Shown here: in pieces, positions 50,230 to 57,766 of the stretch
Layout of the letters: each line of letters opens with the position of its first letter
Position numbering within the stretch: position 1 is the first letter of the stretch
DNA from: Halobacterium sp. R2-5
GTDB taxonomy: Archaea; Halobacteriota; Halobacteria; Halobacteriales; Halobacteriaceae
NCBI RefSeq assembly: GCF_011734195.1
Contig: NZ_JAANTH010000002.1
Location: forward strand, 124,001-188,000
Length of the DNA stretch: 64,000 nucleotides
Reading direction: 5' to 3'
The notes under the pieces: model-generated
Databases searched by the model: none
What the model was told of the DNA's origin: nothing
Seen by the model: the letters and a program-made list of their open reading frames with translations, nothing else
Made by a program: the position numbers and the translations under genes

Positions 50230-52464
<2,235 letters not shown>

Positions 52465-52502
52465 CTATCTAGCTCCAGCCGTGCCTCCCAGTTAACGGTG
52501 CT

Positions 52503-52518
52503 GTTGGCATTTACCAAC
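52503..52518. promoter_or_regulatory. Inverted repeat upstream of katG
   Basis: GTTGG and CCAAC with a 6-base AT-rich centre (CATTTA), 45-60 bases before the katG start. The centre could hold the TATA box on the minus strand, so a protein bound here would control katG. The match to a known regulator is not established. Confidence 0.35.
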
Positions 52519-52620
52519 TCGTGCAACGGGTCACCACACGCCCCGGTCGCCGGCAGAGCCCGCCCACCACTTCCAGCGATTCGGAAGCGTTAAACCGCTC
52601 ACTGGCCAACCCACGAGTGC

Positions 52621-52693
52621 GGGCCGGTGGGGTAGCTTGGTATCCTTCGGCCTTCGGGTGGCCGTAACCACGATTCAAATTCGTGCCGGCCCA
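52621..52693 (+). tRNA. tRNA-Pro (anticodon CGG)
   Basis: Acceptor GGGCCGG pairs with CCGGCCC; the D-arm includes GGTAGCTTGGTATCC; the anticodon stem CGGCC/GGCCG encloses TTCGGGT with anticodon CGG; the T-arm is CACGA/TCGTG with loop TTCAAAT; discriminator A is at 52693. No intron. Its 3' end borders the accessory island. Confidence 0.93.
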
Positions 52694-52747
52694 CTTCACA
52701 TATACCCCTTTTCCCGCATTTCTCGACACGTAGCGGCCGCTCTGCGG
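52681..52747 (+). repeat. Left attachment-site-like repeat at tRNA-Pro 3' end
   Basis: Starts inside the tRNA acceptor (TCGTGCCGGCC) and ends CGTAGCGGCCGCTCTG-CGG. The same two blocks, with CCCG-ATT-CTC between them, recur at 55378-55429 in the same orientation; the distance between blocks differs by 15 bases. A TATA-like CATATACCCC lies at about 52698-52707. Confidence 0.55.
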
Positions 52748-52748
52748 G

Positions 52749-53126
52749 GTGGTCTGCGTGAGCCTCCGCGCGCGAACGTATTCGCGGAGCCGCCGCTTCG
52801 TCACGCTCACACACTGCCCGTTCTGCGGGTACAACTTCGACTGTGACGAGTCCCGCCCCGACCACCTCGCCGATCACGACCCCGAAGACGCGGGGCTGAA
52901 TCCGCTCGGGGAGATCGACCTTGACGAGTTCGATGGCGTGACGTGGTCGTACAATGGGCTACCGAGCACGGTCTCGCACCGGCTGAAGACGGCCTTCGAG
53001 AAGTGCGAGGCAGCTGGGCAAGACCCTGAGCGCTTCCGGCAGGCGGTCGTGAAGTTCCGCGCGAACGGAGTCGTGGGGATTATTGTGAATGATGCCCACG
53101 ATAGAGTAAAGCCACCCCCGTCCTAA
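52749..53126 (+). CDS. C2H2 zinc-finger protein of the accessory island
   Basis: 125 residues from GTG 52749; GTG 52758 is equally possible. The finger is HCPFCGYNFDCDESRPDHLADHD. The rest is LDEFDGVTWSYNGLPSTVSH, RLKTAFEKCEAAGQDPERF and VVKFRANGVVGIIVND. Not a known family to me. The first 20 residues come from the att-like region and may not belong to the protein. It is followed by the HalOD1 gene eight bases later. Confidence 0.62.
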   Translation: MVCVSLRARTYSRSRRFVTLTHCPFCGYNFDCDESRPDHLADHDPEDAGLNPLGEIDLDEFDGVTWSYNGLPSTVSHRLKTAFEKCEAAGQDPERFRQAVVKFRANGVVGIIVNDAHDRVKPPPS

Positions 53127-53134
53127 GATACAGT

Positions 53135-53476
53135 ATGGGTCAGCAATCGTTGACTGTGTATCGTGGCTGTACACCAGTGGTGGATGCTGAGTACGAGTTC
53201 GAGAGCGATGGGTCGCCCGCGGAAGTCATCGTCGAGGCTCTAGCAGAAGCCGCCGAGATCGACCCGCTCGATCTTCCACCACTGTACGAGTTCGTCGATC
53301 CTGACGCCCTTAATCAGCTCTTTGGAGAGCACGACGGCGCAGCCCACGCGGATGCTCTCCTCAGTTTTCAGGTCGAGACCTGGAACGTGTTCGTCCGGGC
53401 CGACGGCCGCATTCGGGTCTGTGATGCCACCCAACCCACCGACCCGGAACCAGTCTTCGAATCCACCCCCGCCTAA
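53135..53476 (+). CDS. HalOD1 output domain protein
   Basis: 113 residues from ATG 53135. The HalOD1 pattern is IVEALAEAAEIDPLDLPPLY, EFVDPDALNQLF and VETWNVFVRADGRIRV. HalOD1 domains are haloarchaeal output modules usually found alone or with receiver/PAS proteins; the output is not defined biochemically. Probably cotranscribed with the zinc-finger gene. Confidence 0.85.
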   Translation: MGQQSLTVYRGCTPVVDAEYEFESDGSPAEVIVEALAEAAEIDPLDLPPLYEFVDPDALNQLFGEHDGAAHADALLSFQVETWNVFVRADGRIRVCDATQPTDPEPVFESTPA

Positions 53477-53584
53477 TTCGACTCTCTAAGTTCGCTTGTC
53501 GGTATGAACACCAGTTCTGTACTTAGCAGTAGTTCTCTACGAGACTCCACACGGGGTCTCACGCCGAGAGGATCGCTTTCCTGA

Positions 53585-53619
53585 ATATGCACACCAGCTC
53601 ACGAACCTCGTGTGCATAT
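53585..53619. repeat. Perfect 10-base inverted repeat
   Basis: ATATGCACAC at 53585-53594 and GTGTGCATAT at 53610-53619 with a 15-base centre. It lies in the 275-base spacer 53477-53751, which holds no gene. A spacing of 25 bases between arm starts would suit a dimeric DNA-binding protein, or it could form a hairpin. Confidence 0.6.
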
Positions 53620-53680
53620 CTCGGTGCCCGTAGCCCATCGCAATTGGCCGCGACCAGGCTGACCACTCGATATTCTCGAA

Positions 53681-53701
53681 AACGGGGTGAAATCACCCGT
53701 T
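53681..53701. repeat. Second hairpin in the same spacer
   Basis: AACGGGGTGA and TCACCCGTT pair with one bulged G and loop AA, 50 bases before the DUF7692-like gene. It may be a terminator or an operator. Confidence 0.45.
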
Positions 53702-53751
53702 GAGTTGCCCGAGATACATGGGTTAAGCGGGGTCGTGTGTACGAGACGAGT

Positions 53752-53997
53752 ATGCGAATCCGGACTGACGGCGACTACGCCCATCGCCTCGACGCCATCG
53801 AATCAGCCATGGAAGCCCTCGACGAGAATACGAAGACCGCTGCCGTGATCGCTGCCTGCGAGCACGCTCGCCAAGATCGTAAAGCGAAGCAGAAGGCGTT
53901 AGCCCATCCGGATATGACGCCCGAACTCGCGGAGATCCTGAGTACCTCGGTGCTGGAACTCTCCTACGAGACTCACACTAGCCTCGACACACGATAA
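53752..53997 (+). CDS. DUF7692-like haloarchaeal protein
   Basis: 81 residues from ATG 53752 (MRIRTDGDYAHRLDAIESAM). The rest is ALDENTKTAAVIAACEHARQD and LAHPDMTPELAEILSTSVLEL. This matches my memory of DUF7692, small proteins frequent on haloarchaeal plasmids and islands. It looks like a helical DNA-binding or antitoxin-type protein (inference). An upstream GTG at 53737 would add five residues. Confidence 0.7.
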   Translation: MRIRTDGDYAHRLDAIESAMEALDENTKTAAVIAACEHARQDRKAKQKALAHPDMTPELAEILSTSVLELSYETHTSLDTR

Positions 53998-54078
53998 GCG
54001 CAGATTCGATAAGTACAGGCGGGGGATTGCCCAAGTGGCAGAAAGCCATTTGCCCGGCAGCCCCGTACTAGTGTTCTC

Positions 54079-54567
54079 ATGAGTCCTGATGACCTCGATA
54101 GGATCGATAAGGGAATCCTCTATCTCCTCCAGCAGGACGCTCGGAAACACACGACAACAGAGATTGGGGAGAAAGTCGGCGTGTCCTCGAGCACGGTCGC
54201 CAATCGCATCAACAACCTCGAAGAGCGAGACGTCATCACCGGGTATCATCCAATCATTGAGTACGAGCAGACTGGGATGGGCCACCATCTCCTCGTGCTT
54301 GCGACCGTCCCATTGACTGATCAAGCAGAAATCATCGACGAGCTTGTCAGCGTCCCCGGTGTCGTGAGTGTCCGAGAGCTACTGTCGAATAATCGGAATC
54401 TCTCCATCGAGTTAGTCGGGAAGAGCAAACAAGACATCGAGAAGAGTGTTGGCGAGTTGGATTCGTTGGGGGTAGACATCGAACGAATGGAGATGCTGAA
54501 AAAGGTGCGACAGTTCCCGTACAATCACTTTGGAAAAGAGTACACAACAGAGACGGAGGATGGATGA
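54079..54567 (+). CDS. Lrp/AsnC-type transcriptional regulator
   Basis: 162 residues from ATG 54079. The N-terminal HTH is LDRIDKGILYLLQQDARKHT and EIGEKVGVSSSTVANRINNL, followed by GYHPIIEYEQTGMGHHLLVL and a ligand-binding-like region (EIIDELVSVPGVVSVREL). The last 50 residues (KKVRQFPYNHFGKEYT) go beyond a normal Lrp. Lower GC than the core genes around it. It converges on a HalOD1 gene. Confidence 0.85.
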   Translation: MSPDDLDRIDKGILYLLQQDARKHTTTEIGEKVGVSSSTVANRINNLEERDVITGYHPIIEYEQTGMGHHLLVLATVPLTDQAEIIDELVSVPGVVSVRELLSNNRNLSIELVGKSKQDIEKSVGELDSLGVDIERMEMLKKVRQFPYNHFGKEYTTETEDG

Positions 54568-54581
54568 TTTGCTGACGGTAG

Positions 54582-54830
54582 CTAGTGAGTGTGGTCTTTG
54601 ACAGCCACATAGCCATCGGCATCCACACTCACTTCGTAACTGTTGTAGTTGAACACCACCTTCCCTAGAGACGCCTTTCCAGCGAACAAGTTGTCCAACG
54701 CGTCGGAGTCAACTGCGTCATATAGTGGCGGTAATTCCGTCGGTGGAGTATTGTCAATGGCAGCTACTGTCTCGATTACTGCCTGACTCATGGTCCGAGT
54801 ATCCGTCTCAACGGTCTGGACAAGGCTCAT
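54582..54830 (-). CDS. HalOD1 output domain protein (second copy)
   Basis: 82 residues from ATG 54830. HalOD1 pattern: ETVAAIDNTPPTELPPLYDA, VDSDALDNLF and YNSYEVSVDADGYVAVKD. An internal ATG (residue 14) is possible, but the TATA box at 54857-54864 is 27-34 bases before ATG 54830 and supports the longer form. It is convergent with the Lrp-type gene, 14 bases apart. Confidence 0.83.
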   Translation of the reverse strand: MSLVQTVETDTRTMSQAVIETVAAIDNTPPTELPPLYDAVDSDALDNLFAGKASLGKVVFNYNSYEVSVDADGYVAVKDHTH

Positions 54831-54856
54831 CGGAAACGACTAGACTCTCGCCGGGC

Positions 54857-54864
54857 ATAAAAAC
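54857..54864 (-). promoter_or_regulatory. TATA box for the second HalOD1 gene
   Basis: Minus-strand GTTTTTAT 27-34 bases before ATG 54830, consistent with a leaderless mRNA. Confidence 0.5.
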
Positions 54865-54865
54865 A

Positions 54866-55133
54866 TTGGAGAACTGATAATTTCCAGGGTGGCTTAAATA
54901 AGGTCTGGAAAGTATCCAGTATCGTCCTCGTTCGTGAATTCCTTTCCGACGCGATTACAGGAGAACGCCCGAATCCGCTTCAGCATATCCGCGCGCTCAC
55001 TTCACAGTCCTACTTAGTGCCTGTTCCACGACAGATAGTGCCGAACTATAGTATTCTAACAGAGCGTCCATATCGAAGCTCGTTGCCCCAGTTCAGTTAC
55101 GACTCGCCGAGGTCGTGCTCGCGCTCGAAATGA
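54866..55133. other. Island spacer without recognisable gene
   Basis: Lower-GC sequence with a promoter-like GGCTTAAATAAGG near 54891-54903 and an AT-rich ACTATAGTATTC at about 55044. No open frame with family character is seen on either strand. It is probably decayed sequence upstream of the integrase remnant. Confidence 0.5.
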
Positions 55134-55316
55134 GTGATGACTGCTTCAGTCGCCGTCTCACCTGTCGCCTCAATCTCGGCGCGGGTGAATGCTGATCCGG
55201 ACGTGATTGCCGAACACTACGACAAGCCTTCAGACGACGAACTCTGGCGTTGCCGCCGCGAGCGGATGGAAAAGCGCCGTAACCACCTTAGCACCCTCAA
55301 AATCGACGATGATTGA
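55134..55316 (+). pseudogene. C-terminal remnant of a tyrosine integrase
   Basis: 60-codon frame from GTG 55134 (ATG 55137) to TGA 55316. From residue 17 it reads RVNADPDVIAEHYDKPSDDE and then RCRRERMEKRRNHL, the way haloarchaeal XerC-like integrases end; the Tyr in EHYDKPS would be the catalytic tyrosine. The Arg-His-Arg core upstream is missing and an in-frame stop precedes the fragment. It lies beside the right att-like repeat. Confidence 0.6.
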
Positions 55317-55741
55317 CGAAACTACGAGTTTCGACAGCACCCCCTCTCTCAGTACCTTCAGCAACGGCGAACCGACATCGTGCCGGCCAATCGCTCCCGT
55401 ATTCTCCGCGCGTAGCGGCCGCTCTGTGGCTGTCAGACGTGGTTCGAACTACACTACGTGTGGGACTAGAATCGACCGATTTAGCGAACTCGCCGTCTCC
55501 CTGCGGCGTCGGAGACGAAGCACGTCCGCGTTCTCGGAGGCGACGATTTTCACTGGCGCCGGACGGACGTTCTCTGGTACGCGGAGGATACCACTGCCAG
55601 ACGGCGGTCCAACTCGCGTCAGTGGAGCGGTCGAAGGGCGGGCGTACTCCAGTTATCGACGGAGAGCAGCGCCCGTAACCGCCGGCAACTCGGGAAACAG
55701 TCGTCACGTATCATGAGGCCGGCAATCGAGAACTATGAGTG
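55317..55741. other. 425-base stretch with the right att-like repeat and no supported gene
   Basis: Long overlapping frames exist on both strands but are Ser/Arg/Thr-rich without motif, as expected by chance in GC-rich DNA. It includes the repeat at 55378-55429. The last 40 bases precede the HtrA gene and should hold its promoter, but no clear TATA box is seen. Confidence 0.5.
55378..55429 (+). repeat. Right attachment-site-like repeat
   Basis: TCGTGCCGGCC (55378-55388) equals the acceptor end of tRNA-Pro at 52681-52691. Then CCCG-ATT-CTC and the 16-base identity CGTAGCGGCCGCTCTG (55411-55426, equal to 52729-52744). Direct orientation relative to the copy behind tRNA-Pro. Confidence 0.55.
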
Positions 55742-56824
55742 ATGGTACAGCGTCAATTCATAACGATAGTCGTCGTCGCGCTGCTCGTCGGCTCCGTCGT
55801 GCCGCTCGGCGTCGCCGGGCTCACGTCGCAAGCGGAGACTGATACGTCGAACCTTCAAGAGGCCTGTAACTACCAGCAGCTGTACGACGAAACCGTCGAC
55901 TCAGTAGTGTCGGTGACCCGCGGCCAGGGCGGTGGAAGCGGACTCGTCGTCGAGACCGCCCAGAACGGGTCGGAGAACCTGATCGTGACCAACGCCCACG
56001 TCGTCGGTGACGCGTCGTCGGTCACCATCGAGTTCCGCGAGGGCGACCAGGTTAACGGCACGGTCCTCGGCGCCGACCGCCTGACCGACCTGGCGGTCGT
56101 CCGTGTCTCCGAGACGCCGTCGTACGTCGAGTCGTTCGAGGTGGCGTCGTCGCTGCCCGAGCCCGGCGAGAAGGTGGCGGCGCTCGGCCATCCGTTCGGG
56201 CTGGACGAGACTATCACGTCGGGCATCGTGAGTGGGACGGACCGCGCGCTCCCGACGACGGAGGGGTACACGCTCCCGCAGGTCCTCCAGACCGACGCCG
56301 CCATCAGTCCCGGCAACAGTGGCGGCCCGCTCGTCACCTGTGACGGGACGGTCGTCGGCGTCAACACCGCGGGCCTGTCCGCCCAGGGCGCCGAAGACAT
56401 CGGGTTCGCCGTCCCTGCTACTGTCGTCTCCGAAGTGGTGCCCGAACTGATCGAGGACGGCGACGCCGAACACGCCTATCTGGGCATTGCCGGCGCTGAC
56501 GTGACCCCCGCGATAGCCCAGGCCAACGGCCTGAACGCGACCCAGGGGGCGTACGTCGCGGCCGTCGCTGAGGGCGGGCCCGCCACTGGAACGCTCCAGG
56601 GCGCGACCGCCGTCGAGAACGTCTCCGGCGTCAGAGTCCCGGTCGGCGGTGACGTCATCGTCGCCGCAGGTGGAAGCTCCATCGAGTCAGGGCAGGACCT
56701 CAAGGAGTTCCTGTTGCTGAGCTCCGAGCCCGGCGACACGGTCACCCTGACGGTGCTGCGCGACGGCGCGCGGACGAACGTCAGCGTCACGCTCGGTGAG
56801 CGGCCGGAACCGGGGAGCGCCTGA
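55742..56824 (+). CDS. HtrA/DegP-type serine protease with PDZ domain
   Basis: 360 residues from ATG 55742, with an in-frame GTG just before it. An N-terminal hydrophobic segment (FITIVVVALLVGSVVPLGVA) is a signal peptide or anchor, so it acts outside the cytoplasm. The trypsin-like triad is His86 in VTNAHVVGD, Asp116 in LTDLAVVRV and Ser193 in SPGNSGGPLV. A PDZ domain follows (GDVIVAAGGSSIESGQDLKEFLL). Role in protein quality control outside the cell membrane. Confidence 0.92.
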   Translation: MVQRQFITIVVVALLVGSVVPLGVAGLTSQAETDTSNLQEACNYQQLYDETVDSVVSVTRGQGGGSGLVVETAQNGSENLIVTNAHVVGDASSVTIEFREGDQVNGTVLGADRLTDLAVVRVSETPSYVESFEVASSLPEPGEKVAALGHPFGLDETITSGIVSGTDRALPTTEGYTLPQVLQTDAAISPGNSGGPLVTCDGTVVGVNTAGLSAQGAEDIGFAVPATVVSEVVPELIEDGDAEHAYLGIAGADVTPAIAQANGLNATQGAYVAAVAEGGPATGTLQGATAVENVSGVRVPVGGDVIVAAGGSSIESGQDLKEFLLLSSEPGDTVTLTVLRDGARTNVSVTLGERPEPGSA

Positions 56825-56912
56825 CGCGGCGGGTGTCCGTCGCTCGCCCGTCGTTCTCCCGCGGCGCGACCACGGGAAACTGTTAAGCGCCAACGACGTT
56901 CAGTACCCGAAC

Positions 56913-57140
56913 ATGGTCACGGAGCGCGACCGCATCTGGAACGCGACGCTCCGCGTCGCCGCCGACCCCGCAGCCGACGTCACGCCCGACACGGTCCTCG
57001 CCGAACTCGACGCCCCCCTCGGACGCGGCACCGTCCGCGAGACGCTGAAGTCGATGTGGGAACTCGGCGTGCTGCGCTGCGCGGACGGCGGCGGCCGGCA
57101 GGAGGGAACGTACCGACTGAACAACGGCATCTTCGACTGA
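56913..57140 (+). CDS. Small winged-helix protein
   Basis: 75 residues from ATG 56913 (MVTERDRIWNATLRVAAD). A single winged helix: DTVLAELDAPLGRGTVRETL, KSMWELGVLRCADGG and GTYRLNN. It may bind DNA; related small proteins are common in haloarchaea. A promoter-like TGTTAAGCG lies about 30 bases upstream. Convergent with the pilin gene. Confidence 0.78.
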   Translation: MVTERDRIWNATLRVAADPAADVTPDTVLAELDAPLGRGTVRETLKSMWELGVLRCADGGGRQEGTYRLNNGIFD

Positions 57141-57231
57141 GCGCAGCCACGCCGTTCTCGAGGGCAGTCTCGGCAGTGCGTACTCGCGGCTACGCGTGAC
57201 ACAATAAAAAACGACGGTGTAGGGACGGCCG

Positions 57232-57672
57232 TTAGCTTCCGGACCCGACCGTGATCTCTTCCTGCGTGACGACGGTGCGCGCGCCACCGCTCCCGATCGC
57301 GGTCACGGTGACCGTGATCTCGTCTTCGCTGTCGGCGGTGATACGCACGCTATCGCCGACGTTGTTCAACTCTGTCGAGGTGACCGGGCTTCCATCCATC
57401 TGAACCGTACTGGTATCGTTGTTCGCGACGGAGATGTTCAGGGTCTGCGCGTTCCCCTCACTGATCCACGTCGTCGTCGCGTTGCCGTCGTTGGTCTGGC
57501 TGACGTCCGCGCCGGCCTGGACGTTCTCGCTGACGCTGTCGCCGAACCCGAGCACGAAGCTCGCGATGACGGCGGCCAGGATGACTGTGATCGCTACCAT
57601 CAGGATGACGCCGATGACCGGCGACACCCCGCGCTCGTCGCGGTCGGGGATCTCGAAGCTGATTTCCTTCAT
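57232..57672 (-). CDS. Archaeal type IV pilin
   Basis: 146 residues from ATG 57672. A class III signal peptide [20 protein letters not shown], with cleavage by the prepilin peptidase expected before or near GVSPVIG, is followed by a hydrophobic assembly helix ([17 protein letters not shown]). The outer domain is Thr/Ser/Asp-rich with Asn residues in possible N-glycosylation sites (NISV, NATT). It should build surface pili for adhesion. The leader is long, with a TATA box at 57767-57774. Confidence 0.9.
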
Positions 57673-57766
57673 GTCTGGTGTGCCTGCACAGACTGGAACG
57701 GCGTCGGTCAGCCGTCTTCCCCCTCCGTTCGCAAGTCCGTGCTTGGCGCCCCTCTCTTCTGCGCGT

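Follow-up and report, generated by a model that had tools for sequence, protein, structure and literature searches.

Organization of the tRNA-Pro locus

The 64-kb window analyzed here (G000:C2:124001-188000, i.e., contig C2 of a haloarchaeal genome of 2.98 Mb in five contigs) contains a tRNA-Pro(CGG) gene followed by an island with remnants of a pleolipovirus-like provirus (v1 in the following) and, at the far junction of the latter, by a probable left-end sequence of another such virus (v2; Table 1). Two exact direct repeats, an 11-base core (TCGTGCCGGCC; 52681-52691 and 55378-55388) and a 16-mer (CGTAGCGGCCGCTCTG; 52729-52744 and 55411-55426), recur 2.7 kb apart in the same order and orientation, essentially at the places given in the initial annotation of this DNA. 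The latter had located the tRNA gene at 52681-52747; a tRNA gene is indeed present, but this span comprises its 3′ end plus 53 further bases. The lower GC content claimed for the island was confirmed (0.50–0.61 vs. 0.65–0.71 outside).

The exact 16-mer occurs twice in the whole 2.98-Mb genome, both times at this locus. With up to 2 mismatches it matches 12 places in the genome, compared to 44 for a reversed control pattern; therefore, only the exact match is informative. When region 52000-56500 was shuffled 500 times by dinucleotides, a direct exact repeat of 16 bases arose twice, and repeats of at least 16 bases are present in 10 of 27 half-overlapping slices of equal size from the window (this slice included), so that the 16-mer by itself is modest evidence. 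The weight of the case lies on the two collinear repeats together with the location of the tRNA, the presence of an integrase end and the comparison with other genomes.

Table 1 Features of the tRNA-Pro(CGG) locus (positions in the window)
Feature	Position	Strand	Basis and remarks
tRNA-Pro(CGG), integration target	52621-52694	+	ARAGORN; found in 12/12 congeners
Left attachment site (attL) core TCGTGCCGGCCCA	52681-52693	+	same as 13-base viral attachment site (attP) of Halorubrum virus Humcor2
Virus left end with the cut-off C-terminal half of the attP-spanning coding sequence (..SHIPLFPHFSTRSGRSAGWSA, then stop), including left 16-mer	52695-52761	+	translation
Deletion chimera: N-terminus of CxxC protein and C-terminal part of Rep (DUF7845), in frame	52749-53126	+	C4 DNA matches
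HalOD1-domain protein	53135-53476	+	PF18545, E 1.6e-20; without C4 DNA match
Virus segment with DUF7692 gene (53737-53997)	53550-54016	+	92 % identity to C4; PF24743
Lrp/AsnC-type regulator	54079-54567	+	domain match
Second HalOD1-domain protein	54582-54830	-	domain match; without C4 DNA match
Virus segment	55003-55179	+	C4 8565-8389, 96 % identity
C-terminal remnant of SNJ2-type tyrosine integrase	55182-55316	+	tblastn: 43 % (C4 integrase), 33 % (Humcor2)
Un-split attP-type coding sequence: N-terminal half, core, C-terminal half to SGRS, in one open frame	55309-55426	+	translation
Right attachment core TCGTGCCGGCCAA	55378-55390	+	12/13 bases as in attL core
Right 16-mer, predicted C-half codons of second virus left end	55411-55426	+	frame and pattern scan
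HtrA-like trypsin/PDZ protease	55739-56824	+	domain match; at this site in this genome only
Small open reading frame without family	56796-57140	+	at this site in this genome only

Relationship of the island to provirus C4

Contig C4 of the same genome (locus L069, 1-13295) holds what seems to be a complete provirus of pleolipovirus type, located at tRNA-Pro(TGG). Its products include a Rep with DUF7845 and an SNJ2-type integrase with 54 % identity to that of Humcor2; its spike protein is related to those of His2, HHPV-3 and HRPV-1, and its NTPase shares 45–47 % identity with SNJ2, HRPV-3 and HHPV-3. Four pieces of the island match C4 collinearly with 85–96 % identity: 52679-52925 (C4 13295-13049, 85 %), 52910-53073 (C4 11256-11093, 94 %) and, in the same order, the two virus segments in Table 1. 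C4 differs from the island by its size (13.3 kb), structural module, full-length integrase, exact 17-base att repeats bounding it, and host flank past the right attachment site (attR).

With four collinear matches to C4 and an integrase C-terminus at its end, the island is a decayed (gutted) pleolipovirus provirus. This agrees with the initial annotation, which had recognized a tRNA-integrated element in decay with an integrase end beside the right repeat copy; the respective remnant adjoins a copy of the attachment core. Integration at the tRNA 3′ end via a short core is reflected in the two cores of Table 1. The SNJ2-type integrase beside the right core is represented by its C-terminal fragment only, which directly follows segment 55003-55179 and reads RVNADPDVIAEHYDKP... 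(Humcor2: RVNASVQTIRDHYDWA...). Genes for the spike, the membrane protein and the NTPase module were not found in the island, the C4-like segments jumping from C4 8389 to the integrase end; since this absence is read as deletion, v1 is classed as a remnant only.

Among the accessory genes noted initially, the first turned out to be a deletion fusion of two virus genes. The open reading frame is listed from 52749, its likely start being GTG at 52758, and GGAGATCGAC is common to both C4 sites at the joint. The DUF7845 Rep expected downstream of the CxxC gene is accordingly present as a fused remnant.

The 16-mer as part of an attP-spanning coding sequence

Dyall-Smith and colleagues (PMC7911831) describe pleolipoproviruses as having a coding sequence (CDS) across attP that is broken in the integrated state, and according to PMC13107129 orf26 of SNJ2 is translated with attP included. 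When the joined ends of viruses were translated to obtain such circular CDSs, the attP-spanning CDS of C4 (MIQRN...LSDGSAGWSA, 49 amino acids), Humcor2 (MNRQI...LSGSTGWSA, 44 amino acids) and SNJ2 (...ETGWSA, 79 amino acids) all ended with GWSA. According to this translation the 16-mer encodes the C-terminus (SGRS.GWSA, then stop) of a small attP-spanning CDS, and its initial assignment as attachment sequence is to be replaced by that of coding sequence of the virus left end. The left copy reads SCRPTSHIPLFPHFSTRSGRSAGWSA followed by a stop, overlaps the start of the CxxC gene and is in frame with the core at a core-to-block distance of 51 nt. As expected after integration, the CDS is severed here, its left half lying at 52681-52761; the rejoined form is found at the right junction.

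Related blocks are found elsewhere. Humcor2 begins with one directly after the tRNA-Pro core, and in 8 of 13 other flanks (G012, G006, G007, G018, G058, C4, G009 and Humcor2) the block is in frame at 51 or 54 nt; it is out of frame in G015, G022 and G001 and missing in G004 and G011. Loci L126 (Halomicroarcula rubra) and L206 were outside this frame test, and L126 shows the block. A related block (GTAGCGGTGGCCGTCTCGCGGGGGTGGTCCGCGTGA) also stands behind tRNA-Thr(CGT) in L192 (G277), so that the virus left end is not confined to tRNA-Pro.

Two other roles were considered for the block. A long attachment site was rejected, since the block lies outside the core of 13–17 bases and is coding. A promoter or leader (TATA-like ATATACCCC plus Shine-Dalgarno-like GGGGTGG) was superseded, as the attP-spanning CDS explains both frame and spacing; the block may nevertheless have a dual role, being coding and part of a promoter or leader.

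The right junction

At the right end of v1, as in C4, a start codon (ATG, 55309) overlaps the stop codon of the integrase gene (TGA 55314-55316), and the reading frame that it opens (MIDETTSFDSTPSLSTFSNGEPTSCRPIAPVFSARSGRS) crosses the core and enters the block. Compared with other left ends, the block lies 15 nt nearer to the core, a shift that keeps it in frame. An un-split attP-type junction is hence present within the chromosome, and its gene order resembles that of a circular or tandem virus. In contrast, five of five other right ends used as controls (G058, G022 and G009 at tRNA-Pro, G010 at tRNA-Ala, and C4/C1) lack the block and continue with host sequence after the core. The right border is therefore not a plain attR, as had been assumed initially, but the core is followed by what is probably a second virus left end. 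A single plain island, with an ordinary attR on the right and the block as part of a long duplicated attachment site, would account for the collinearity of core and block on both sides and for the adjoining integrase end; this already disfavoured reading is very unlikely in view of the 13–17-base cores of Humcor2 and C4, which exclude the block, and of the five controls.

A pattern scan for the block in 392 genomes yielded 21 places in 19 genomes, of which 16 were judged by eye to have virus form and five to be chance-like. The virus-form places measure 59 nt in 14 cases, 57 nt in G246 and 44 nt in the right copy of the present locus. Thirteen of the 16 are situated directly behind tRNA-Pro(CGG), in G210 the tRNA lies 113 bases further up, and two follow an integrase end, namely the right copy here and one on contig C7 of G352.

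Taken together, v1 probably adjoins the left-end remnant of a second like virus, v2, a reading in which we have good confidence on the basis of sequence comparison. In this reading, v1 inserted at the tRNA and then decayed; as the comparison shows, the fusion gene, the HalOD1 genes, DUF7692, Lrp and the integrase tail are what is left. The sequence past the v1 core would be the v2 left end instead of host flank, with the CDS rejoined in frame across the junction; from this we infer a tandem origin. Most likely, either a left-end remnant of v2 was already in place at the tRNA when v1 integrated, a state seen in G012 today, or the two viruses formed a tandem from which v2 later disappeared. Because the virus would provide the tRNA 3′ end, its left end could hardly be lost without harm to the tRNA, and repeated infections may thus stack at one tRNA and decay from the right.

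Several observations weigh against this interpretation. The right copy carries the 15-nt deletion and several substitutions, GWSA with its stop is lost after SGRS, and the likeness fades from there. A search for the second element beyond the junction retrieved about 40 bases of left end only; past ~55430 no v2 sequence was recognized except for short matches at the HtrA start, and DNA comparison from 55179 to the pilin gene gave no match except a 55-base one inside HtrA. The post-core sequence CTCCCGTATTCT also resembles host tRNA flanks, and the right copy could therefore be of host origin in part. The open frame is weak evidence, since the DNA is GC-rich and host flanks at other attR sites also stay open for some distance. 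The scan counts by themselves prove nothing, because the reversed control pattern matched in many genomes, and it is form and position that matter. Finally, v1 was not a simple copy of C4, in which DNA matches to Lrp and to both HalOD1 genes are missing.

In a rival view, the block behind the right core is host flank with a chance likeness to a virus left end. G001 has CTTAGCGGTTGCTCTGGG after the tRNA and a short spacer, and G004 shows a partly similar short flank (CTCCCGCATTCTTCGACACGTA). Against this view, the exact 16-base match is in the right frame and order, and with the block out of frame in G001 and missing in G004, those flanks may themselves be virus scars; the view is partly refuted at present, and we consider a host origin quite unlikely.

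The intact order of integrase, attP and CDS would also be expected from a dimer of v1, arising by dimer integration or by homologous recombination with a circle and followed by loss of the second copy. C4 offers a parallel: it shares exactly 127 terminal bases with the start of C2 on the tRNA side and another 127 with that of C1 on the host side. Since the assembly is broken precisely at the att repeats, C4 is probably integrated with circular or tandem copies also present; the overlaps suggest such copies in the culture. A v1 dimer is nonetheless unlikely, as the right and left copies differ too much for a recent one.

Comparison with congeners and the HtrA segment

The tRNA gene was found in 12 of 12 congeners and KatG upstream of it in 11 (G007 has no KatG in the stretch taken). 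An AAA kinase is encoded downstream in 10 of 12; the contig of G006 ends before it, and G007 shows none. Homology to the window ends 2–3 bases past the tRNA in 9 of 12 congeners, which supports the left border at the tRNA 3′ end as initially proposed, and returns at the pilin gene (~57230) in those congeners keeping pilin, followed by the host pilin, kinase and NUDIX genes. The distance from tRNA to kinase is ~0.9–1.4 kb in G004, G009, G002, G010 and G012 and 2.2–7.2 kb in five other congeners with the kinase, compared to 5.5 kb here. The comparison with relatives suggested in the initial annotation thus did not place the right border at 55429: the repeats fit as boundaries of v1, but the whole insertion is larger. 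G012 retains ~110 bases of virus left end only before the pilin region, an arrangement that would be expected of an older remnant.

The intervening segment 55430-57230 may have been carried in as old cargo, may have been inserted later or may belong to the host. None of the 12 congener flanks contains HtrA. Its best homologs (52–59 %) are scattered; matches with E <=1e-100 in 293 haloarchaeal genomes all share at most 59 % identity. For the small open reading frame, G006 is the one congener with a homolog (52 %), which is located elsewhere. If both genes were cargo of an older element, the real island would extend from 52695 to 57230. Absence of the segment from the site in the 12 congeners and the resumption of host genes at ~57230 speak for such an origin, the host-like GC content, the lack of any virus or integrase signal and the distant, scattered HtrA homologs against it, which leaves it a possible but doubtful explanation. 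No support was found for HtrA as virus cargo, and a genome-contig search with HtrA gave nothing.

About 140 bases past tRNA-Pro, several species (G009, G002, G010 and G019; L053, L055, L059 and L066) have another partial copy of the tRNA 3′ end together with its flank. The virus left end of G210 sits at such a second copy.

Related elements and possible consequences

Humcor2 (MW344764), a pleolipoprovirus of Halorubrum coriense at tRNA-Pro, is similar to the island in its 13-base attP core, the CxxC gene first at the left end, the SNJ2-type integrase last, and attP within a short CDS ending GWSA. It differs in being complete (11.8 kb), and its recovery as an induced circular form has been reported, whereas the island consists of pieces with an un-split far junction. 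The betapleolipovirus SNJ2 (OP012469) likewise has a CDS across attP (orf26) that ends ETGWSA and overlaps the next CDS, and a DUF7845 Rep; unlike v1 it is a functional replicon, with another attachment core and an integrase 36.5 % identical to that of C4. Neither the block pattern nor the integrase and Rep of C4 gave any match in a search of viral contigs.

The closest counterpart of the junction is located in G352 (C7:263043-263101; L239, L240, L241), where the integrase 3′ end, core, un-split CDS and a CxxC-type gene follow one another. In contrast to the present locus, long elements are retained on both sides: an SNJ2-like virus ends at the un-split junction, and a second left end follows. 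A tRNA-Pro with a left end is found near the end of contig C6; since C6 and C7 share no overlap and are separated by a gap, the tandem can only be deduced, and G352 is a candidate for a tandem provirus.

The repeat may be read as a trace of virus biology, i.e., of a small gene cut on integration and healed by circularization. PMC13107129 reports that the SNJ2 replication operon forms upon excision, that orf26 is required for replication, and that a nonsense mutation in each of orf19-orf26 stops the rise in copy number while excision goes on. From a rejoined gene at a chromosomal junction one would predict that excision might be dispensable for the replication of tandem proviruses. One may speculate, although we regard it as rather unlikely, that pleolipoproviruses arranged in tandem at a single tRNA restore, within the chromosome, both the gene across attP and the integrase-to-rep operon, which stay broken in single proviruses, and thereby bypass the published excision switch; the window would then hold the fossil of such an array, whose survival depended on the loss of Rep and structural genes. 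The interest of the locus lies in the tandem-type junction. Within the literature searches made here, no description of tandem pleolipoproviruses was found; the main text of PMC10599561 does not contain the word "tandem", and passages of a review treat tandem integration of archaeal elements in general, not for pleolipoviruses. The locus also cautions against taking direct repeats next to a tRNA for the two ends of one island as a matter of course.

Further genes of the island

Between the DUF7692 gene and its C4 counterpart, 7 codons show synonymous and 3 nonsynonymous differences; the gene comes after Rep also in elements of G002 and G010. Upstream of it (53550-53737), conserved non-coding inverted repeats (GGGTGAAATCACCC, GTGTGCATATCTCGG) are shared with C4 and could represent a replication or control site; GGTGAAATCACC from this region occurs also in the G002 and G010 elements. 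The Lrp-type regulator has three weak matches in a phage collection, none to a haloarchaeal virus, and searches of DUF7692 and Lrp against named viruses gave nothing useful. The position of the second HalOD1 gene of the island is occupied in C4 (8561-9022) by a HalOD1 gene as well, with no DNA match between the two. The host pilin gene by tRNA-Pro (57449-57674) shares 81 % DNA identity with a pilin gene inside C4 (L069 2234-2456), hinting at exchange between provirus and host.

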